A stretch of DNA of 64,000 nucleotides. It comes from Herbiconiux oxytropis. GTDB taxonomy: Bacteria > Actinomycetota > Actinomycetes > Actinomycetales > Microbacteriaceae. Location of the stretch: the NCBI RefSeq assembly GCF_024979315.1, contig NZ_JANLCK010000003.1, forward strand, positions 248,001 through 312,000, read 5' to 3'. The translations under genes and the position numbers were made by a program. Below, one piece after another: positions 23,489 to 31,630 of this stretch. The notes beneath the pieces were generated by a model. That model did no database searches. It was given only the letters and a program-made list of their open reading frames with translations, and was not told the origin of the DNA. Position 1 is the stretch's first letter, and every line of letters starts with the position of its first letter.

Positions 23489-23505
23489 TGAGTGGGAATT
23501 GCTCA
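23489..23505. promoter_or_regulatory. Dyad operator candidate, site A
   Basis: TGAGTGGGAATTGCTCA, imperfect 7-3-7 dyad, 16 of 17 bases identical to site D at 30017. It lies in the pdtaS/Rv3235-like divergent region. The hexamer TGGAAT starts 25 nt after the dyad end, the same offset as the -10-like hexamers after sites B and D. Confidence 0.6.
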
Positions 23506-23619
23506 TAACGCCCCCACGGCTGCAGCTGATGGAATGTACTCGCAGCACAGCACTGCACACACTTCCGGCCGGGGCGCCCGTTCCCCCGACCTACCGCAGC
23601 CCCGGTCGGAATCACACGG

Positions 23620-23658
23620 CTCCCGTGACCGCTTCGTAGGGAAACGCGGTCACGGGAG
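23620..23658. promoter_or_regulatory. Perfect 13-bp inverted repeat upstream of pdtaS
   Basis: Arms CTCCCGTGACCGC (23620-23632) and its exact complement (23646-23658) enclose a 13-nt loop. No T-run follows. It sits about 18 nt upstream of the pdtaS -10 box, so it overlaps the -35 area. It could be an operator, or the end hairpin of a short RNA begun near site A. Confidence 0.7.
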
Positions 23659-23676
23659 TCACCCTCGAGAGCACCG

Positions 23677-23682
23677 TAGGCT
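23677..23682 (+). promoter_or_regulatory. -10 box of a probable leaderless pdtaS transcript
   Basis: TAGGCT, 7 nt, GTG at 23690, with no Shine-Dalgarno sequence. This box decides the start codon. Confidence 0.5.
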
Positions 23683-23689
23683 AGAACCC

Positions 23690-25183
23690 GTGTCAACTCT
23701 CAGCGACCTCGTCACCGCCCACGGCAGCTCCACCGAAGCCGACGTCGAGTGGCTGCACCTGCTCGTCAGCGACTGCCAGCTGCTCGCCGATCTGGCCTTC
23801 GCCGACATCGTGCTCTGGGTGCCGACGATCGACGACACCTTCGTGGCGGTCGCGCACTCCCGCCCATCGAGCTCGGCCACCCTCTTCTACCGTGACTTCG
23901 TGGGCCAGACCATCAAGCCGGAGTGGCGCAAGCAGGTCACCGACGCCTTCGAGAGCTCCCAGATCGTCGACACCGCGGCCCCGGACTGGTACGAGGAGAC
24001 TCCCACCCGCGTGCGGGCCGTCCCGGTGCTCCGCCGCCTGTCGATGTCCGAGCAGACGACGACCGACAAGCCCATCGCCGTCATCACCCGGCACACCAAC
24101 CTGAGCGAGGCGCGCACGCCGAGCCGCCAGGAGCTCACCTTCAACGAGTGCGCCAACGACCTGTTCGCCATGATCGCCGCCGGCGACTTCCCCGACCTCG
24201 GCGCCCCCACGGGCCCGCGCCGGGGTGCCCCGCGCGCCTCCGACGGCCTCATCCGGCTCGATGTCGACGGAGTGGTCACGTTCGCGAGCCCGAACGGACT
24301 CTCGGCCTTCAACCGCATGGGCTTCGCAGGGGAGCTCGAGGGCCAGTCCCTCGCCGAGGTCACGACCCAGCTGCTCTCGGGCCGGCTCGTGGTCGACGAG
24401 TCGCTGCCTCTCGTCGTCACCGGCCGCGCGCCGTGGCGCACCGACATCGAGGCGAGGGGGGTGACCGTGTCGCTCCGCGCCATCCCGCTCCGCACCCGCG
24501 GCCACCGCTTCGGCGCCATCGTGCTCAGCCGCGACGTGACGGAGCTCCGCCACCAGGAGCGCGAGCTCATCACGAAGGATGCGACGATCCGGGAGATCCA
24601 TCACCGGGTGAAGAACAACCTGCAGACCGTCGCGTCGCTCCTGCGCATCCAGGCCCGCCGCACGCACTCCGACGAAGCGCGGGATGCCCTCACGCAGGCC
24701 ATGCGGCGCGTCGCCGCCATCGCCGTGGTGCACGACACCCTCTCGGAGGGCCTCAACCAGCGCGTCGACTTCGACACCGTCTTCGACCGCGTGCTGCTGC
24801 TCGTGGCGGAGGTGGCCTCGGCCCACAACACCACGGTGCACCCGAAGTCGTCTGGCAGCTTCGGGGTGCTGCCGAGCGAGTACGCCACTCCGCTCGCGCT
24901 CGCGCTCACCGAGCTCGTGACCAACGCGGTGGAGCACGGGCTCGCGGGTCAGGAGGGCGAGGTCGAGATCGTCGCCTCCCGATCGGAGGAGCTGCTGACC
25001 GTCGAGGTGCGCGACAGCGGAACCGGCCTGCCCGAGGGCAAGGTCGGCTCGGGGCTCGGCACGCAGATCGTGCGCACCCTCATCCAGGGCGAACTCGGCG
25101 GCACGATCGACTGGCACACCATGGTGGGCTCGGGCACGGTCGTGACCATCGAGATCCCGTTCCGGTGGCTCAAGAAGGGCTGA
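23690..25183 (+). CDS. pdtaS: PdtaS-type sensor histidine kinase
   Basis: A soluble 497-residue kinase: N-terminal GAF-like domain (about 1-160), PAS domain (about 180-295), HisKA_2 box R-E-I-H-H-R-V-K-N-N-L-Q-T-V-A-S-L-L-R near 302-320, and HATPase_c with E-L-V-T-N-A-V-E-H-G and G-S-G-L-G-T-Q-I-V. In M. tuberculosis PdtaS signals to PdtaR, an ANTAR RNA-binding regulator; no pdtaR is in this window. The gene converges on whiB1 as in M. tuberculosis (Rv3220c/Rv3219, from memory). There are no transmembrane segments, so the signal is cytoplasmic. Confidence 0.92.
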   Translation: MSTLSDLVTAHGSSTEADVEWLHLLVSDCQLLADLAFADIVLWVPTIDDTFVAVAHSRPSSSATLFYRDFVGQTIKPEWRKQVTDAFESSQIVDTAAPDWYEETPTRVRAVPVLRRLSMSEQTTTDKPIAVITRHTNLSEARTPSRQELTFNECANDLFAMIAAGDFPDLGAPTGPRRGAPRASDGLIRLDVDGVVTFASPNGLSAFNRMGFAGELEGQSLAEVTTQLLSGRLVVDESLPLVVTGRAPWRTDIEARGVTVSLRAIPLRTRGHRFGAIVLSRDVTELRHQERELITKDATIREIHHRVKNNLQTVASLLRIQARRTHSDEARDALTQAMRRVAAIAVVHDTLSEGLNQRVDFDTVFDRVLLLVAEVASAHNTTVHPKSSGSFGVLPSEYATPLALALTELVTNAVEHGLAGQEGEVEIVASRSEELLTVEVRDSGTGLPEGKVGSGLGTQIVRTLIQGELGGTIDWHTMVGSGTVVTIEIPFRWLKKG

Positions 25184-25206
25184 GACCTGGGCGCCGGCGC
25201 ACACGA

Positions 25207-25253
25207 AAGAACCCACCGACTCCGCCGCATCGCCGCGGAGTCAGTGGGTTCTT
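25207..25253. terminator. Bidirectional terminator between pdtaS and whiB1
   Basis: A long near-perfect stem: AAGAACCCAC.GACTCCGC pairs with GCGGAGTC.GTGGGTTCTT around a short CG-rich loop. It lies between two convergent stops, with T-rich ends on both strands. Confidence 0.8.
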
Positions 25254-25259
25254 CGGATG

Positions 25260-25508
25260 TCAGGAGGCGCGTCGTGCCCGTGCCGCTCGACGCTTCAGAG
25301 CGCGCCGCTCGTCTTCGCTCAGACCACCCCACACGCCCGAGTCCTGTCCGGTCTCGAGGGCGTACTGGAGGCAGACCTCGGTGACGGTGCAGCGGGCGCA
25401 CACGGTCTTGGCCTTGTCGATCTGGTCGACCGCGGGTCCGGTGTTCCCGACGGGGAAGAACAGTTCCGGGTCAGCGGTCAGGCAGGCGGCTTTGTCGCGC
25501 CAATCCAT
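25260..25508 (-). CDS. whiB1: WhiB1-type iron-sulfur transcription factor
   Basis: An 82-residue Wbl protein. The 4Fe-4S cluster cysteines are C9, C37, C40 and C46 (C-A-R-C-T-V-T-E-V-C), followed by the G-V-W-G-G turn and a basic R-R-A-A-R-A-R-R DNA-binding end. WhiB1 is essential in mycobacteria, reacts with nitric oxide and binds the primary sigma factor region 4. A strong Shine-Dalgarno AAGGAG (25517-25522) lies 8 nt before the ATG. It converges on pdtaS, which supports the WhiB1 rather than another WhiB assignment. Confidence 0.95.
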   Translation of the reverse strand: MDWRDKAACLTADPELFFPVGNTGPAVDQIDKAKTVCARCTVTEVCLQYALETGQDSGVWGGLSEDERRALKRRAARARRAS

Positions 25509-25615
25509 AGCGGGTACTCCTTATGTTGCCAGGGTGCGTCGGTCGATTGACCGGAGGGAATTCGGGTGAGAGATCAATGGCACGGTGGACGTTGCAATCA
25601 GAGGAGACTGCACCC

Positions 25616-25633
25616 GCTCACGTCACTGTGAGC
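25616..25633. promoter_or_regulatory. Inverted repeat in the whiB1 upstream region
   Basis: GCTCAC-N6-GTGAGC is a perfect 6-6-6 dyad, 108 bp upstream of whiB1 and 68 bp upstream of the divergent membrane-protein gene. A perfect 10-bp palindrome, ATTTGCAAAT, follows at 25666-25675. This AT-richer segment (25509-25700) holds no gene. Confidence 0.5.
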
Positions 25634-25700
25634 AACATTGACCTCAGATATGGTCGCATACTGGTATTTGCAAATCAAGGGTTTTCTACGGAGTACAGGC

Positions 25701-26147
25701 GTGAGTGACCAGATGAACGAAGCACGAACTCCGGATGAAAGATCGTCGGGGCCCGACCGCACCCCCGGTCGCCGACCGGTTCTGCTCGTGCTGCTCGCCG
25801 TCATCCTGGCCGCTGAAGCGCTCGCCATGGCGGGGGTCACCGTGTGGCTCGTGTTCGAACTCCTGACCGAGCGGCCGGCCTCCTACGAGACCGCGCTCGC
25901 CATCCTCGTGCTCACCGCGATCGCCGCCGTGTTCCTCGCCTTCGTCGCCGTGCACACGCTCCGGATGCAGCCCTGGACGCGAGCGGCGGCGCTCACCTGG
26001 CAGCTGCTGCAGATCGTCATCGCGATCGGCTGCTTCCAAGGCATCGTGGCCACAGCGTCGGCGGGGTGGTACCTGCTGATCCCCGCCGTGCTGGCCGTGC
26101 TCCTGCTGTTCTCGCCGCCCGTGGTGGCCGCTACGCGTCGAGCTTGA
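25701..26147 (+). CDS. Small four-helix membrane protein, function unknown
   Basis: A 148-residue protein with a hydrophilic N-terminus (about 30 residues) and four predicted membrane helices, roughly 32-55, 66-88, 97-118 and 122-142. I recognise no family motif. GTG 25701 is preferred because GGAG lies 7 nt before it; ATG 25713 is an alternative. The last 17 nt overlap the 3' end of the convergent peroxiredoxin gene. It shares its upstream region with whiB1. Confidence 0.7.
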   Translation: MSDQMNEARTPDERSSGPDRTPGRRPVLLVLLAVILAAEALAMAGVTVWLVFELLTERPASYETALAILVLTAIAAVFLAFVAVHTLRMQPWTRAAALTWQLLQIVIAIGCFQGIVATASAGWYLLIPAVLAVLLLFSPPVVAATRRA

Positions 26148-26613
26148 GCTTCTTGCGGAGCGACGCCACGTGGCCGGTGGCCTTCACGTTGTAGAGCGCG
26201 AGCGTCACGTCGCCCTGCCCGTCGATCACGAACGTGGAGCGGAGCACCCCGGTGACCGTCTTGCCGTAGAGCGACTTCTCGCCCCAGGCGCCGTAGAGCT
26301 CGTGCACGGCCTTGTCGGGGTCCGAGAGCAGGGTGAAGTTCAGGCCCTCGGCCTCGGCGAACCGTTGGAGCTTGGCGGGGGTGTCGCGCGAGACGCCGAG
26401 CACCGTGTAGCCGGCGCTCTTCAGCGAGTTGAGGTGGTCGCGGAAGTCGCACGCCTGCGTGGTGCAGCCGGGAGTGCCGGCCTCGGGGTAGAAGTACAGG
26501 ATGACGCGCTCACCGCGGTAGCCGGAGAGGGTGCGCTCGACGCCGTTCTGGTCGGCGAGGGTGAAGTCGGGGGCGGCCTGGCCCGGTTCGAGGCGCGCGG
26601 TGGTGTCTGTCAT
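26131..26613 (-). CDS. bcp: Thioredoxin-dependent peroxiredoxin, BCP/PrxQ type
   Basis: A 160-residue peroxide-reducing enzyme. The peroxidatic and resolving cysteines occur as G-C-T-T-Q-A-C-D-F-R-D, the intramolecular spacing of BCP/PrxQ, with P-E-A-G-T-P upstream and the conserved T-x-V-L-G-V-S-R-D and R-S-T-F-V-I-D-G segments. It reduces hydroperoxides using thioredoxin. ATG 26613 is chosen because residues before it are not conserved. Dyad site B lies only 21 nt upstream and would cover this gene's -35 region, so it may be co-regulated with the lipoprotein on the other side. Confidence 0.93.
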   Translation of the reverse strand: MTDTTARLEPGQAAPDFTLADQNGVERTLSGYRGERVILYFYPEAGTPGCTTQACDFRDHLNSLKSAGYTVLGVSRDTPAKLQRFAEAEGLNFTLLSDPDKAVHELYGAWGEKSLYGKTVTGVLRSTFVIDGQGDVTLALYNVKATGHVASLRKKLKLDA

Positions 26614-26634
26614 GCGTCCAGTATTTCGCATCCG

Positions 26635-26651
26635 TGAGCAGTGATTGCTCA
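26635..26651. promoter_or_regulatory. Dyad operator candidate, site B
   Basis: TGAGCAGTGATTGCTCA, 14 of 17 identical to site D, with the adjacent CAC also shared. It lies between the divergent bcp and lipoprotein starts. GACGAT (26676-26681) follows at the common 25-nt offset and stands 6 nt before ATG 26688. Confidence 0.6.
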
Positions 26652-26687
26652 TCACTCCCTGCGGCCATCCGACCCGACGATGGGGGC

Positions 26688-26972
<285 letters not shown>

Positions 26973-27009
26973 GAACACCGCACCTCACCACGACATCCCC
27001 GCAGGTCCT

Positions 27010-27291
27010 TCAGTGGCCGTTCGTGTCCGCATCCACGTCGATGCCGTTGCGGGCGAACTCCGATGTCGTCACGATCGTGATGACCGCTCCCACCACCACG
27101 AAGCCGAAGGCGATCACGGCGATCCAGTTCATGGCGTCGTCGAGCGGGGTCCCCTCGTCCGAGTCGGCCCCGATCAGCCACTGCATCGTCTGCAGGCCGA
27201 CGGCGAGCAGCACGTCGATGACGAAGAGCGAGAGCCCGGTGATGTAGGCGATGCGCAGAAGCACGATGAGCCTGGCCGTCAGAGCGTTCAC
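27010..27291 (-). CDS. Small two-helix membrane protein, function unknown
   Basis: A 93-residue protein with helices at about 13-33 and 54-76, and an acidic interhelix loop and tail. I recognise no family. The GTG start at 27291 is preceded by TATCGT with a 6-nt gap, the leaderless pattern, which supports the start. It is divergent from the LuxR-type regulator gene. The 101-nt region between them carries two CTACGTAA repeats (near 27313 and 27335) and dyad site C. Confidence 0.65.
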   Translation of the reverse strand: MNALTARLIVLLRIAYITGLSLFVIDVLLAVGLQTMQWLIGADSDEGTPLDDAMNWIAVIAFGFVVVGAVITIVTTSEFARNGIDVDADTNGH

Positions 27292-27376
27292 GGTCCCACG
27301 ATAAGGCAGGCGCTACGTAATCGTGAGCCCGCTCCTACGTAACCTCGGCTCTCCGCGAGACGGGGGCGATCCCGGG

Positions 27377-27393
27377 TGAGTAGAACCTACTCA
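27377..27393. promoter_or_regulatory. Dyad operator candidate, site C, abutting the LuxR-type start codon
   Basis: TGAGTAGAACCTACTCA is a perfect 7-3-7 dyad whose last base is the A of the regulator's ATG. Binding there would block initiation, which suggests autorepression. Unlike sites A, B and D it has no -10-like hexamer 25 nt downstream. Confidence 0.62.
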
Positions 27394-30023
27394 TGAGCAC
27401 ACAGGACATCTCTTCCCGACCGGGCCGGCTGCACGGCCGCGAACGACTGCTGCGGCACGCGCTGCGGTCGCTGGAACGGCCGGCACCGCGCCCGTTCGTG
27501 CTGGTCACCGGGCGCCAGGGGGTCGGCCGCACGGCCTTCCTCGAGGCCGTCGTGGCCGGCGCCGGCCCCGAGTGGTCGGTGCACGTCATCCGGGGCCGTG
27601 CCGACCTCGCCGACGTGCCGCTCGGCGCACTCGCACCTCTTCTGGCGGGCCTGCCCGACACCGAGAGCAGCGCCGACGGATCCCCGATGGTCGGCCTCCA
27701 CCGCCTCGTGAACCGGCCGGGAGCCGTCGTCGTCGTCGACGACGCCGACCTGCTCGATCCGGCCAGCGCCTGCGTGCTCGAGCAGATCGCGGAGGCGCGC
27801 ACGGCGGCCCTCGTGGTCTCGTGCACGGCGGCGGGCTCGGACATCTCCCGGCACGCGAGCACGGTGATCGAGCTTCCCCCGCTCTCTGCGGCCGACATGC
27901 ACGATCTCGTCAAGGACCGCTTGGGGCCCCTCGTCGGCACCGTGGCCGTCGAGGAGATCGTGCGGCTCGCCGCCGGCAGCACCCGCACCCTCGTGGAGCT
28001 CGTCGACGCGGCCGCGGTGGCCACCGACCTGCACGACGACGCGGGCTCCTGGCGCGAGCGCTGGCCGCACATCACGCCCGGCCTCGTGGCGTCGCTGCCG
28101 CACGATCCGCTGCACACCGACCCGCTCGTGGCCGATCTCCTCGCGCTCGTCGCGGTCGCCGGCGAGGTGCCGGTGGAGCAGGGCGGCACCTCCGGTGCCT
28201 CGGAGCGGGCCACGCGGCGGGCCGAGTCGCTCGGAGTGGTGAGCACCGTGAAGGCCGACGGCCGTCTCTGGGTGCGGCTCTCGCATCCGCTCTACGCCGC
28301 CGTGGTGCTCGGCACGGTCTCCGATCTCGAGAGCGCCTGCTACTGCGCCGCCGGTGCCGACATGCTCGACGGCTACCCCGAGCACCGCGTGCGGCGGACC
28401 CTCCTGCAGTTGAAGGCCGGGCACTGCGTGCCGCCGCAGACGCTCCTCGACCTCGCCCACCAGGAGCTCAGCGCCTGCCGGTACTCCACCGCCATCACCC
28501 TGGGGCTGCACGCCGTCGAGAGGGGCCACACACCGCTTCTGAGAGCAGCAGGGGAGTACGTCGAGGCCCAGGCCTCGTCACAGGTGGGCCGGATCGAGGC
28601 GGCGTCGGCCCACTTCGACGCCGCGTGGGCCCTGCTCGACGACGCGACGGCGGGGGGCGCGTTCGGCGAGGCGGAGCCGTTCGCGGTGGCCCTCGCGCAG
28701 GGGCACGGCAACCACCTCGCCTTCCGGGTGCTCCGGCCGGCCCAGGCGATCGTGCGCATCGAGGCCGTGCTCGACCGGATGGGTCCCGAGAAGCGGCTCC
28801 TGGTGGAGGACGACATCGCGAAGTGGCGGGTGATGGCCGGGCAGGCGCTCTCACCCGATGCCGACGTGCTGTCGATGCTCGGCCCGGTCGAGACACCGGC
28901 AGACCTCAACCTGCTGCAGCTGACCGCGAGCCTGCACACCATGGGCGGTGACCTCGCGCTCGCCGAGGAGGCGGTGGCGCGCGGCCTCGAGGCCTGCGAG
29001 CGATTCCGCGAGGTGCTGCCGAACGCCCGCGACCTGTTCCAGCTCTCCGAGCTGCTCGTGCTCTCGTTCACGGGGCGCTTCGCCGAGGCGAGGCTCGCGG
29101 CCCGCACCAATCTGGCCACCGCGGAGTCGACGAATCCGAGCGCCCGCGGCATGTGGCGGTTCGCGCTCGCCATGATCGAACTGCACACCGGATCGCCCGG
29201 TCGCGCCTGGAAGCTCATCGCCGAGGGCCGCCGCGACCTGCTCTGGCGCGACATCGCCGGACTCCTCCCGGCGGCGGACGCGCTCTCCGCCGCGGTGGCG
29301 GCGCGGACCGGCCGCTTCGCGGTGGCCCGCAGCTGGCTCGACCAGGTGACCCCCGCCGAGATCCGCGATCCTCGGGTGGAGCTCTACGCCGCACTCGCCC
29401 GCGCGTGGGTGTCGGCGTCGGCAGGGCGTCCGGGTTTCGCCATCCGGAGCCTCGCTCCCGTGCTGCACAAGGCCACGGCGGAGGGCAACCGGTACCTGGC
29501 GGCGCTCGTGGCCTACGAGGCGGTCAGGATCGATCCTGTGGTCGGTGCCACCGTGATGCTGCCCACCCTCGTGGCCGCCCGGCAGGCCTTCCCGCTCTGC
29601 GAGGGGCACGCCCGCGCCGTCGTCTCGCGGCAGGACGTGCTCCCGGTGGCCAGGCAGCTCGCCGACGCCGGACTGCTCGGGCCGGCGATCGACGCCGCCC
29701 GCTGGGTGGCCGAGCAGTCCGGCAACGACCTCGTGCGGGCCTCGCACGCCCACCGGCTGGCCGACTCGTGGACCGTGCGCACCGGGATCTCGATGACGCC
29801 GCGGCGCCGGCAGTCGCATCCGCGGGTCATGCCGCTCACGGACCGCGAGTGGCAGCTCGCCTCGGGAGCCGCGTCACTCCGCACGAGCGCCGAGCTCGCC
29901 GCCGAGTTCGGGATCTCGGTGCGGACGGTCGACAACCATCTCGCTCGCATCTACAAGAAGCTCGGGATCGCCGGGCGCCGGGAGCTCGCGGGCGAGCTGG
30001 CCGCTCTCCGATCGGTTGAGTAG
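27393..30023 (+). CDS. Large ATP-binding LuxR-family transcriptional regulator (LAL-like)
   Basis: An 876-residue regulator. N-terminal AAA-type domain with G-R-Q-G-V-G-R-T at 40-47, a Walker A in which the usual lysine is arginine, and Walker B-like V-V-V-V-D-D-A-D-L-L. A helical TPR-like middle of about 500 residues follows. The C-terminal LuxR helix-turn-helix (about 815-872) reads L-T-D-R-E-W-Q-L-A-S, then T-S-A-E-L-A-A-E-F-G-I-S-V-R-T-V-D-N-H-L and I-Y-K-K-L-G-I. The Walker lysine change means ATP binding may be altered. Dyad sites at its start codon and stop codon make it the first candidate to bind the TGAG-N9-CTCA motif. The inducer is unknown. Confidence 0.85.
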   Translation: MSTQDISSRPGRLHGRERLLRHALRSLERPAPRPFVLVTGRQGVGRTAFLEAVVAGAGPEWSVHVIRGRADLADVPLGALAPLLAGLPDTESSADGSPMVGLHRLVNRPGAVVVVDDADLLDPASACVLEQIAEARTAALVVSCTAAGSDISRHASTVIELPPLSAADMHDLVKDRLGPLVGTVAVEEIVRLAAGSTRTLVELVDAAAVATDLHDDAGSWRERWPHITPGLVASLPHDPLHTDPLVADLLALVAVAGEVPVEQGGTSGASERATRRAESLGVVSTVKADGRLWVRLSHPLYAAVVLGTVSDLESACYCAAGADMLDGYPEHRVRRTLLQLKAGHCVPPQTLLDLAHQELSACRYSTAITLGLHAVERGHTPLLRAAGEYVEAQASSQVGRIEAASAHFDAAWALLDDATAGGAFGEAEPFAVALAQGHGNHLAFRVLRPAQAIVRIEAVLDRMGPEKRLLVEDDIAKWRVMAGQALSPDADVLSMLGPVETPADLNLLQLTASLHTMGGDLALAEEAVARGLEACERFREVLPNARDLFQLSELLVLSFTGRFAEARLAARTNLATAESTNPSARGMWRFALAMIELHTGSPGRAWKLIAEGRRDLLWRDIAGLLPAADALSAAVAARTGRFAVARSWLDQVTPAEIRDPRVELYAALARAWVSASAGRPGFAIRSLAPVLHKATAEGNRYLAALVAYEAVRIDPVVGATVMLPTLVAARQAFPLCEGHARAVVSRQDVLPVARQLADAGLLGPAIDAARWVAEQSGNDLVRASHAHRLADSWTVRTGISMTPRRRQSHPRVMPLTDREWQLASGAASLRTSAELAAEFGISVRTVDNHLARIYKKLGIAGRRELAGELAALRSVE

Positions 30024-30033
30024 GAATTGCTCA
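30017..30033. promoter_or_regulatory. Dyad operator candidate, site D, overlapping the regulator's stop codon
   Basis: TGAGTAGGAATTGCTCA. It is followed by CAC as in site B, and by CACACT (30058-30063) at the common 25-nt offset. The TAG stop at 30021-30023 lies within it. Confidence 0.6.
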
Positions 30034-30067
30034 TCACACCGTGCCGGCCCGCGCCGCCACACTGGCT

Positions 30068-30204
30068 TCTGGCACACAGCCAGTCATCGCCGCTCGTGCG
30101 GTCCGGCCCCACGCGCGGTTCACTCGTCAGTCCCACGCCCCGGAGCGCACGGCGATGATCCGGGAACAGGGGCGGCCTTCGGGTGGCCGCCCCTGTTCTT
30201 TTCC
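30068..30204 (+). ncRNA. Candidate small RNA downstream of dyad site D
   Basis: Site D, a -10-like CACACT and a strong intrinsic terminator at 30164-30204 delimit a non-coding transcript of about 135 nt. No ORF with start and ribosome site is seen in it. An internal CTGGCTTCTGGCACACAGCCAG can fold. This is inference from signals only; the alternative is that the terminator merely ends the regulator mRNA. Confidence 0.35.
30164..30204 (+). terminator. Intrinsic terminator
   Basis: GAACAGGGGCGGCC (30164-30177), a 7-nt loop, the exact complement (30185-30198), then TTTTCC. It is one of the best rho-independent terminators in the window. Confidence 0.85.
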
Positions 30205-30240
30205 TTCCTGGCGGGGCCCGGTTCTTCCTCCCACCTGCCC

Positions 30241-30246
30241 TACTGT
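30241..30246 (+). promoter_or_regulatory. -10 box of a probable leaderless transcript (glucose-6-phosphate dehydrogenase)
   Basis: TACTGT, 7 nt, ATG at 30254. Confidence 0.45.
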
Positions 30247-30253
30247 GATTGCT

Positions 30254-31630
30254 ATGACGCAACGGGTCGACACTCTCCTCATCTTCGGCGCCAGCGGCGA
30301 CCTCACCGCTCGCCTCCTGCTCCCCGGCCTCGGCCAGCTCCTCACCGATCAGCCCGACAGGCGGCTCGAGCTCATCGGCGCCGGGGGAGTGGAATACACC
30401 GACGAGCAGTGGAAGACGATCGTCACGACCTCGTTCTCCGAGGTCGAGGCCGAAGGTGCCGCCATCGACGCCCTCCTCGCCTCCACCCGCTACGTGCAGG
30501 CCGACGTCACGGATGCGAAACAGCTCACCGACGTGCTCGCGCTCGCCACGGGGAACCCCGCGATCTACTTCGCCTTGCCGCCCGCGGTCGCCGCAGCTGT
30601 GGTGACCACCCTCCAGACCATCGAGTTCCCGCCCGGGCTCACACTCGCCCTCGAGAAGCCGTTCGGGCTCGACGTGCCGAGCGCCATCGCGCTGAACGGC
30701 GAACTCGCCAAGCTCGTGCCCGAGAACCAGATCCACCGCGTCGACCACTTCCTCGGCCGCTCGACGGTGTTCAACATCCTCGGCCTCCGCTTCGCCAACC
30801 GCATCTTCGAGCCGGTGTGGAACTCCGAGCACATCGCCTCGATCGACGTCGTCTACGACGAGCAGCTCGGCCTCGAGGGCCGTGCGGGCTACTACGACAA
30901 GGCGGGAGCCCTCGTCGACATGATCCAGAGCCACCTGCTCCAGGTGATGGCCGTGCTCGCCATGGAGCCGCCCTCGACGCTCGGCTCGGACGACCTGCGC
31001 GACGCCAAGGAGATCGTGCTCCGCGCGACCCGCCTCTGGAACGACGATCCCGCGACGGGAAGCCGGCGGGCCCGCTACACGGCCGGCGACATCGACGGCC
31101 GCTCGCTGCCGAGCTATGCCGACGAGAAGGGCGTCGATCCGGCGCGAGAGACCGAGACGCTCGCCGAGGTCACGCTCGAGGTGTCGACCTGGCGCTGGAA
31201 GGGAGTTCCCATCACGCTGCGCTCCGGCAAGGCCCTGGTGGAGCGCCGCCGCGAGATCGTGGTGACCTTCAAACCCGCCAACCAGCTGCCCGTGGGCCTC
31301 ACGGGCGCCAACGCGCCCACCGTGCTGCGGCTCTTCCTGGCACCGGATGCGATGTCGCTCGAGATCGACATCAACGGCCCCGGCGACCCGTACGAGCTCG
31401 AGCGCACGAGCCTCGACGCCACCTTCGGCGACGGCCAGCTGCTGGCCTACCGCGAGGTGCTCGCCGGCATCCTCGACGGCGACCCGACGCTCGGTGTGCG
31501 CGGTGACTCCGCGGTGGAGGGCTGGCGCATCCTCGCCCCCGTCATCGCCGCCTGGCGCGCCGACGAGGTGCCGCTCGACGAGTACCCCGCCGGTAGCGAG
31601 GGCCCGTCGGAGTGGAAGCGGATCGGCTGA
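30254..31630 (+). CDS. zwf: Glucose-6-phosphate dehydrogenase, short divergent form
   Basis: Oxidises glucose 6-phosphate to 6-phosphogluconolactone with NAD(P)+. At 458 residues it is shorter than classical Zwf (about 490-510). The N-terminal cofactor motif is G-A-S-G-D-L-T. The substrate motif R-I-D-H-Y-L-G-K appears as R-V-D-H-F-L-G-R, with its lysine replaced by arginine, and D-M-I-Q-S-H-L-L-Q-V keeps the catalytic histidine. These changes mark the divergent actinobacterial paralogue, which often stands apart from the main pentose-phosphate cluster, as here. Cofactor preference cannot be told. Confidence 0.85.
   Translation: MTQRVDTLLIFGASGDLTARLLLPGLGQLLTDQPDRRLELIGAGGVEYTDEQWKTIVTTSFSEVEAEGAAIDALLASTRYVQADVTDAKQLTDVLALATGNPAIYFALPPAVAAAVVTTLQTIEFPPGLTLALEKPFGLDVPSAIALNGELAKLVPENQIHRVDHFLGRSTVFNILGLRFANRIFEPVWNSEHIASIDVVYDEQLGLEGRAGYYDKAGALVDMIQSHLLQVMAVLAMEPPSTLGSDDLRDAKEIVLRATRLWNDDPATGSRRARYTAGDIDGRSLPSYADEKGVDPARETETLAEVTLEVSTWRWKGVPITLRSGKALVERRREIVVTFKPANQLPVGLTGANAPTVLRLFLAPDAMSLEIDINGPGDPYELERTSLDATFGDGQLLAYREVLAGILDGDPTLGVRGDSAVEGWRILAPVIAAWRADEVPLDEYPAGSEGPSEWKRIG

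Follow-up and report, generated by a model that had tools for sequence, protein, structure and literature searches.

The 64,000-nucleotide (nt) window analyzed here (Herbiconiux oxytropis contig NZ_JANLCK010000003.1, positions 248,001 to 312,000, forward strand) contains luxR, a gene for an 876-residue LuxR-type regulator, and four 17-bp dyads of the form TGAG-N9-CTCA, which we call A to D (Table 1). Two of the dyads border luxR itself: the last base of dyad C is the A of the ATG at 27393, and dyad D overlaps the TAG stop codon (30021-30023). The structured RNAs A and D lie downstream of dyads A and D, followed by the protein-coding genes pdtaS and zwf. Dyad B precedes a lipoprotein gene remnant; on the opposite strand, the likely start of an AhpC/TSA-type gene is about 21 nt beyond this dyad.

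An initial annotation, made from the sequence alone, had described these four dyads, and we confirmed that they are real. The 17-mers lie exactly where it had placed them, and its estimate of about one chance occurrence per 64 kb compares with a mean of 0.79 in dinucleotide shuffles of the window. TGAG-N9-CTCA has four matches in the window, all of them dyads A to D, and four or more were reached in none of 100 shuffles. When site D was used as a query with up to three mismatches, only D, A, and B were found (0.02 expected). Positions 25 to 30 past dyads A, B, and D hold the -10-like hexamers listed in Table 1, also as first annotated. No such hexamer (nAnnnT at position 25) follows dyad C in the window.

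Table 1. Dyads, genes, and RNAs around luxR (window coordinates).
Feature	Position	Strand	Details
Dyad A, RNA A promoter	23489-23505	+	-10-like TGGAAT at 23530-23535; dyads also at orthologous loci
RNA A, structured non-coding RNA (model R2 match)	23530-23671	+	transcription start inferred
Leaderless pdtaS promoter (probable)	23677-23689	+	TAGGCT, 7 nt, GTG at 23690
Dyad B, lipoprotein gene promoter	26635-26651	+	-10-like GACGAT at 26676-26681
Lipoprotein gene remnant, 72 amino acids	26688-26906	+	frame runs into tRNA-Lys gene
Dyad C, luxR 5' end	27377-27393	+	perfect 7-3-7 palindrome TGAGTAGAACCTACTCA; candidate autorepression operator
luxR, 876-amino-acid regulator	27393-30023	+	N-terminal AAA_16-like domain, C-terminal GerE/LuxR helix-turn-helix
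Dyad D, RNA D promoter	30017-30033	+	-10-like CACACT at 30058-30063
RNA D, structured non-coding RNA (model R1 match)	30058-30205	+	covariation, fold energy
Leaderless zwf promoter (probable)	30241-30253	+	TACTGT, 7 nt, ATG at 30254

Recurrence of the dyad and its promoter layout

The initial annotation had proposed a local regulon. That description does not fit, because the sites are spread over the genome, where they mostly serve secreted cell-wall-binding proteins. TGAG-N9-CTCA by itself is only weakly enriched in the H. oxytropis genome (47 places vs. 33 for the reversed control). The extended pattern TGAGYR-N5-YRCTCA occurs exactly at 15 places, 4 in the window and 11 outside it, and TGAGYRNNRANYRCTCA gave 13 exact matches vs. 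none for its control. Six of the 11 outside places lie before genes for secreted proteins with CWB2 (PF04122) repeats. The probability of six or more by chance is about 1.6e-9, given 47 CWB2 frames and an assumed total of 3,800 genes. The others precede a choice-of-anchor-D surface protein, a secreted Vgb-lyase-like protein, and sepH (one each), with two places unassigned.

The genome encodes 125 CWB2 repeats, spread over at least 47 frames, which were found with a repeat regular expression around all repeats except C14:1-252; some of the frames are cut at contig ends. A dyad scoring matrix built on 49 sites from other genomes of the genus placed a strong dyad, scoring at least 20.8 bits, ahead of 10 of these 47 frames, the next scores being 16.1, 12.2, and 9.0. 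Nine of these ten genes have a start codon that yields a signal peptide (picked by eye) at 60-82 nt from the dyad; for the tenth gene, the start is ambiguous. Three PF04122 stretches were present in each of 10 H. oxytropis CWB2 proteins that we scanned, nine of which are encoded behind a dyad. The CWB2 targets have the three repeats and the signal peptide (judged by eye) by which the family is recognized. Several contigs (C3, C9, C14, C15, C17, C28, and C30 of C1-C31) end in or close to CWB2 repeats, which seem to be where the assembly breaks.

The CWB2 family of Clostridioides difficile likewise has three PF04122 repeats per protein as a cell-wall anchor. One regulon target gave a weak match to the SlpA model (71 of 650 bits). 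The Herbiconiux genes differ in being scattered and in having a dyad promoter in common; we know of no LuxR-type shared promoter for the C. difficile CWB2 genes.

Similar targets were found in seven other genomes, which together contain 54 TGAGYRNNRANYRCTCA sites. Sixteen of these precede CWB2 genes (by regular expression) and six precede surface proteins that resemble, by eye, the choice-of-anchor-D protein of H. oxytropis (locus L025). The remaining assignable sites precede a Vgb-lyase-like protein (one), other secreted proteins (four), lipoproteins (two), RNA A (five), RNA D (one), luxR itself (one, in genome G026), and sepH (six). The dyad upstream of sepH (DUF3071) lies at L027:7033-7049 in H. 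oxytropis and is present in six of seven relatives that were read (L132, L136, L154, L166, L170, and L177). These sepH dyads have another downstream context, with no -10 at position 25. A flagellar or chemotaxis regulon was considered and rejected, the targets read being cell-wall and secreted proteins and the five Herbiconiux strains of PMC10011130 being reported as non-motile.

We pooled the 13 H. oxytropis sites with the 54 from the seven other genomes to examine promoter anatomy. The hexamer nAnnnT begins at position 25 past the dyad in 44 of the 67 sites, and no other start between 11 and 45 accounts for more than six. The first four bases past the dyad are TAAC in 26 sites, TACC in six, and TCAC in five. 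The layout is strict: the dyad is followed by 24 nt, mostly starting T-A/C-A/C-C, and by nAnnnT; the distance from the dyad to the start codon is usually 60-80 nt. Because the dyad lies upstream of the -10, at the place of a -35 box, and with a fixed spacing in those 44 sites, this arrangement corresponds to activator-site geometry, with the dyad apparently standing in for the -35. A promoter scan found no sigma-70 pair, a negative that carries little weight since only 0.2 was expected by chance. A promoter for an extracytoplasmic function (ECF) sigma factor was rejected: by eye, the GAA-like core is about 31 nt from the -10, which is the wrong spacing. In the 5' leaders of three loci (L020, L023, and L026) we also observed, by eye, a short hairpin just past the inferred transcription start (e.g., CTGGAA..TTCCAG).

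The regulator and its relatives

The C-terminal GerE domain of the regulator (residues 814-866) was identified with an E-value of 2.5e-9 and 37 bits against a cut-off of 23.5, and the AAA_16 match (E 2.1e-7, 32.0 bits) falls slightly under its cut-off of 32.6. The protein has a Walker A motif, GRQGVGRT, and a Walker B-like VVVVDD. The Walker A lysine is replaced by arginine (GxxGxGR[TS]) in H. oxytropis and in every one of the 13 orthologue rows from the Herbiconiux/G026 clade (window 27393-27600). Distant homologues, one misaligned row apart, have GK[ST]. This substitution may alter ATP hydrolysis.

LAL (large ATP-binding LuxR-type) regulators are about 800-1000 amino acids long, with a C-terminal GerE/LuxR helix-turn-helix and an ATP-binding AAA domain (Walker A and B) at the N-terminus. 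The 876-residue protein has this size and the C-terminal GerE domain; at the N-terminus it has the AAA_16 match just short of its cut-off. It matches no named LAL equivalog among those scored (AbsR2, 51.8 of 850 bits; MalT, 21.5 of 537 bits). MalT and Streptomyces SCO0877 and SCO7173 share its size, its C-terminal GerE domain, and probably its N-terminal AAA-like domain, and the LAL literature covered by our search deals with the phosphate response and antibiotic production. The Herbiconiux clade differs in its Walker A arginine and in a putative regulon of surface proteins and small RNAs.

Among 299 genomes of the family, a luxR orthologue (56% identity or more) is present in eight, seven of them from the same genus plus G026. 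These eight have 5-13 motif matches each, 67 in total vs. two for the reversed pattern, and the 291 genomes without an orthologue have at most four. Fisher's test on this split gives 7e-16, a value that overstates independence because the eight genomes come from only two genera. Within the genus, all 16 genomes have 5-13 motif matches and 15 have the orthologue. The loci compared include those of Herbiconiux daphne, H. ginsengi, H. gentiana, two other Herbiconiux, and a Microbacteriaceae bacterium, with a further fragment named Corynebacterium-like bacterium B27. Dyad C reads TGAGTARAACCTACTCA in 11 of 13 orthologue loci (L091-L096 and L032-L038, some genomes being counted twice), and fragment L097 has TGAGTARAACCTACTCA too. 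Random scatter of the motif and a lack of conservation in relatives had been named at the outset as observations that would speak against a regulatory role; we looked for both and found neither.

Upstream of luxR there are two ACGTAA elements (window 27315-27342). ACGTA is kept exactly 40 nt before dyad C in the six relatives read (L091-L096). These elements are possibly the site of a second regulator.

Distant homologues of the regulator (26-35% identity) were also inspected. Nine of the 22 family genomes scanned (G018, G228, G111, G192, G082, G220, G242, G145, and G282) have a dyad scoring at least 16 in the stretch around the gene, a count biased upwards by the wider stretches used for eight of the 22 (three of them chosen for known motif matches) and by the absence of a matched control. 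Both genome-wide pattern matches of G018 flank a luxR homologue. G282 has one pattern match in all; its homologue is followed by a fitting dyad, 18 nt beyond the matched stretch. The recognition helix is SVRTVDNHLARIYKKLG in the H. oxytropis protein, and a similar SVRTVDNHLARIYRKLG is found in several of the distant homologues. This comparison favors the LuxR-type protein itself as the dyad binder.

Structured RNAs and neighboring genes

RNA A consists of two hairpins (approximately 23563-23611 and 23618-23660); its apical loop, GUUCCCCCGACCU, is C-rich. RNA D has a long-range helix in which GUCAUC pairs with GAUGAU, a hairpin whose loop is highly conserved around UUCACUCGUCAGU, and an intrinsic-terminator-like hairpin (approximately 30162-30200) followed by TTTT. 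Twelve loci downstream of dyad D share the long-range helix, a hairpin with its loop around TTCACTCGTCAGT, and the terminator-like hairpin, with two-sided changes in 16 of 28 pairs. None of 500 shuffles reached the observed paired cells, double changes, or covariation score, and 18 reached the further pair types. For RNA A, eight loci downstream of dyad A share the two hairpins and the C-rich loop, with two-sided changes in 9 of 30 pairs; the corresponding shuffle counts were 0 of 500 on the first three measures and 44 of 500 on pair types. Both RNAs fold more stably than their shuffles, with z-scores of -4.7 for RNA D and -6.0 for RNA A.

Neither RNA matches an Rfam family above the gathering cut-off. 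Between 23300 and 30400 only a tRNA passes, and the sole Rfam overlap with RNA D is below cut-off and on the opposite strand. Closed open reading frames within the two RNAs are at most 41 codons long and differ between sequences, a count that does not exclude frames running off the ends. When the 299 genomes were scanned with stricter filters, which lose weak matches, model R1 (RNA D) at an E-value of 1.6e-19 or better was found only in the eight luxR genomes. Weak R1 matches (E 2.2e-6 to 7.5e-4) were seen in eight others, five of them nominally spanning the whole model. Model R2 (RNA A) at 2.1e-29 or better was restricted to the same eight, with one weak partial match elsewhere. RNA A is about 40-60 kb away from luxR in genomes G250 and G205, yet a dyad accompanies it there too (in G250 with two bases changed). 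The association of dyad and RNA thus survives changes in local gene order.

One alternative is that RNAs A and D are not stand-alone transcripts and instead form the 5' leaders of pdtaS and zwf, as attenuators or riboswitch-like elements. The zwf gene follows RNA D in all 12 aligned loci, pdtaS follows RNA A in the 11 rows where it was found, and strong hairpins end both RNAs. However, each gene has its own conserved leaderless -10 beyond the hairpins. TAGGCT, 6 or 7 nt, and GTG occur in all 11 rows with pdtaS (14 loci searched; loci L095 and L139 are probably one genome). TACTGT-N7-ATG is found at the zwf start in 11 of the 12 RNA D loci, G026 being the exception, with one chance match in the window (7964) set aside. 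Such leaderless starts are typical of actinobacteria. The distance from RNA to gene also varies, and RNA D in the window has its TTTT tail. We therefore regard the leader explanation as improbable. The reading in which pdtaS and zwf are targets of dyads A and D was rejected on account of those promoters; dyads A and D most likely serve two conserved non-coding RNAs.

The RNAs may act in trans. We searched for the reverse complements of their loops in 11 genomes of the genus and compared duplex energies, and found no conserved mRNA target. Eleven exact-match loci were opened: five were RNA A itself, four were a shared unrelated hairpin, and two (L252 and L261) were singletons. For loop A, duplexes with 11 regulon start regions (-12.3 kcal/mol) were weaker than those with 133 controls (-18.4 kcal/mol); after correction for base composition the difference was small (z 0.69 vs. 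0.15, control standard deviation 1.21). The hairpin shared by four of these loci (L255, L259, L260, and L267), AGGTCGGGGGAACCAGC...GCTGGTCCCCCCGACC, is non-coding and conserved in four genomes of the genus, and one of its strands is close to the RNA A loop.

Dyad B or a similar dyad precedes a gene for a lipoprotein of 164-178 amino acids in four translated relatives (L093, L094, L095, and L171). The two of these lipoproteins scanned by Pfam contain a Septum_form domain.

A putative surface-protein regulon and its alternatives

We consider it probable, from the comparisons above, that the dyads are bound by the 876-residue AAA/LuxR regulator, which would control a genome-wide regulon of surface proteins and two small RNAs and repress itself at dyad C. 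On some signal, the LAL-like protein would bind dyads such as TGAGTAGNAAYTRCTCA as a dimer. Bound there, it would take over the role of a -35 box and activate transcription in the manner of a class II activator. Its targets would comprise about 10 of the 47 CWB2 frames, the choice-of-anchor-D surface protein, the secreted Vgb-lyase-like protein, and the lipoprotein (degenerate in this strain), along with the small RNAs A and D that flank the regulator gene. At dyad C the regulator would repress its own gene, a reading suggested by the lack of nAnnnT at position 25 in the window and by the position of this dyad after ACGTA. Comparative evidence thus ties the dyads, as regulatory sites, to the LuxR-type gene, and lends support to the originally proposed activation from A, B, and D and self-repression at C.

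Recurrence, spacing, conservation, RNA covariation, and co-occurrence with luxR are properties of the sequences themselves; direct binding by the regulator, activation at A, B, and D, and repression at C are what we infer from them. Several points weigh against this reading. Allowing one mismatch in TGAGYR-N5-YRCTCA gives 102 places in the H. oxytropis genome vs. 106 for the reversed control, which is no excess. No strong dyad precedes 37 of the 47 CWB2 frames, so the regulator would control a subset of the family. For twelve of the 54 sites in the seven other genomes no plausible target could be assigned, and the six at sepH, with their different spacing, may reflect another regulator or a different mode of action. 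Conservation at orthologous loci is also imperfect. Locus L036 lacks dyad C, and L038 (G026) has a different dyad, TGAGTAGAAACTGCTCA, before luxR. L092 and L034 have a degenerate or displaced dyad ahead of RNA D, and in L094, L216, and L217 the one ahead of RNA A differs at two bases (TAGG in place of TGAG). The 3' end of RNA A is uncertain because no U-run follows its last hairpin. Finally, the co-occurrence comes from one genus plus one other and may reflect few evolutionary events.

The dyads could instead belong to another transcription factor, with luxR merely one of its targets through dyad C, which we think unlikely. The conserved dyad C at luxR would also fit control by such a factor, and genome G302 keeps eight motif matches with no luxR orthologue detected. 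The G302 assembly is a draft of about 170 contigs with 92% completeness, and it also has no RNA A match, which suggests a missing stretch of assembly. The dyads adjoining distant LuxR homologues in other genera speak against a different factor, and no other regulator gene was seen to share the linkage, though none was searched for.

It is also rather doubtful that the regulator, if it is the binder, represses the CWB2, RNA A, and RNA D promoters rather than activating them. LAL proteins can repress, and PMC9628970 reports a negatively acting one. A dyad at the -35 place, upstream of the -10 and at fixed spacing, has the geometry of an activator site instead. That the four dyads are chance palindromes is extremely improbable: the modest 47 vs. 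33 for TGAG-N9-CTCA and the lack of excess for the one-mismatch motif are outweighed by the clustering in the window, and for the extended motif chance is excluded by the phylogenetic pattern, the conservation at orthologous loci, and the fixed -10 spacing.

The activation of small RNAs and surface proteins by the AAA/LuxR regulator would have partial precedents. DosR of Mycobacterium is a LuxR/NarL-type regulator. According to PMC5360333, it drives both protein genes and the structured small RNA DrrS/MTS1338 from a promoter with its site overlapping the -35 region, a LuxR-family arrangement with a promoter of the geometry seen here. DosR differs in being a two-component response regulator, whereas the Herbiconiux protein is an 876-residue AAA/LuxR protein with a different dyad; in Herbiconiux, moreover, two RNAs adjoin the regulator's own gene and the putative regulon consists of cell-wall surface proteins. 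In the Vibrio LuxO-Qrr system, too, one regulator has several small RNAs under its control, the regulator family and the RNAs being unrelated to those described here. The parts are thus of known kinds; their combination appears to be new, as do the operator and both RNA families, as far as Rfam and the portions of the literature covered by our search go. Those portions, on Microbacteriaceae and on actinobacterial LuxR and small-RNA regulation, mention no such regulon.

To our knowledge, little is known about cell-surface control in actinobacteria outside Streptomyces, Mycobacterium, and Corynebacterium. If the proposed regulon is real, a plant-associated genus offers a defined regulator, a 17-bp operator whose promoter geometry is exact, two new RNA families, and a set of surface-protein targets, each open to direct testing. 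The role of CWB2 proteins in actinobacteria would then be approachable through a single regulator. We are evenly divided on the stronger proposal of a genus-specific surface-coat switch, in which a Walker A-arginine regulator would activate, through one invariant promoter type, a dispersed CWB2 protein family and two new small-RNA families flanking the regulator gene while repressing itself. If that proposal is correct, the RNAs would link remodelling of the cell surface with the post-transcriptional regulation of further genes.

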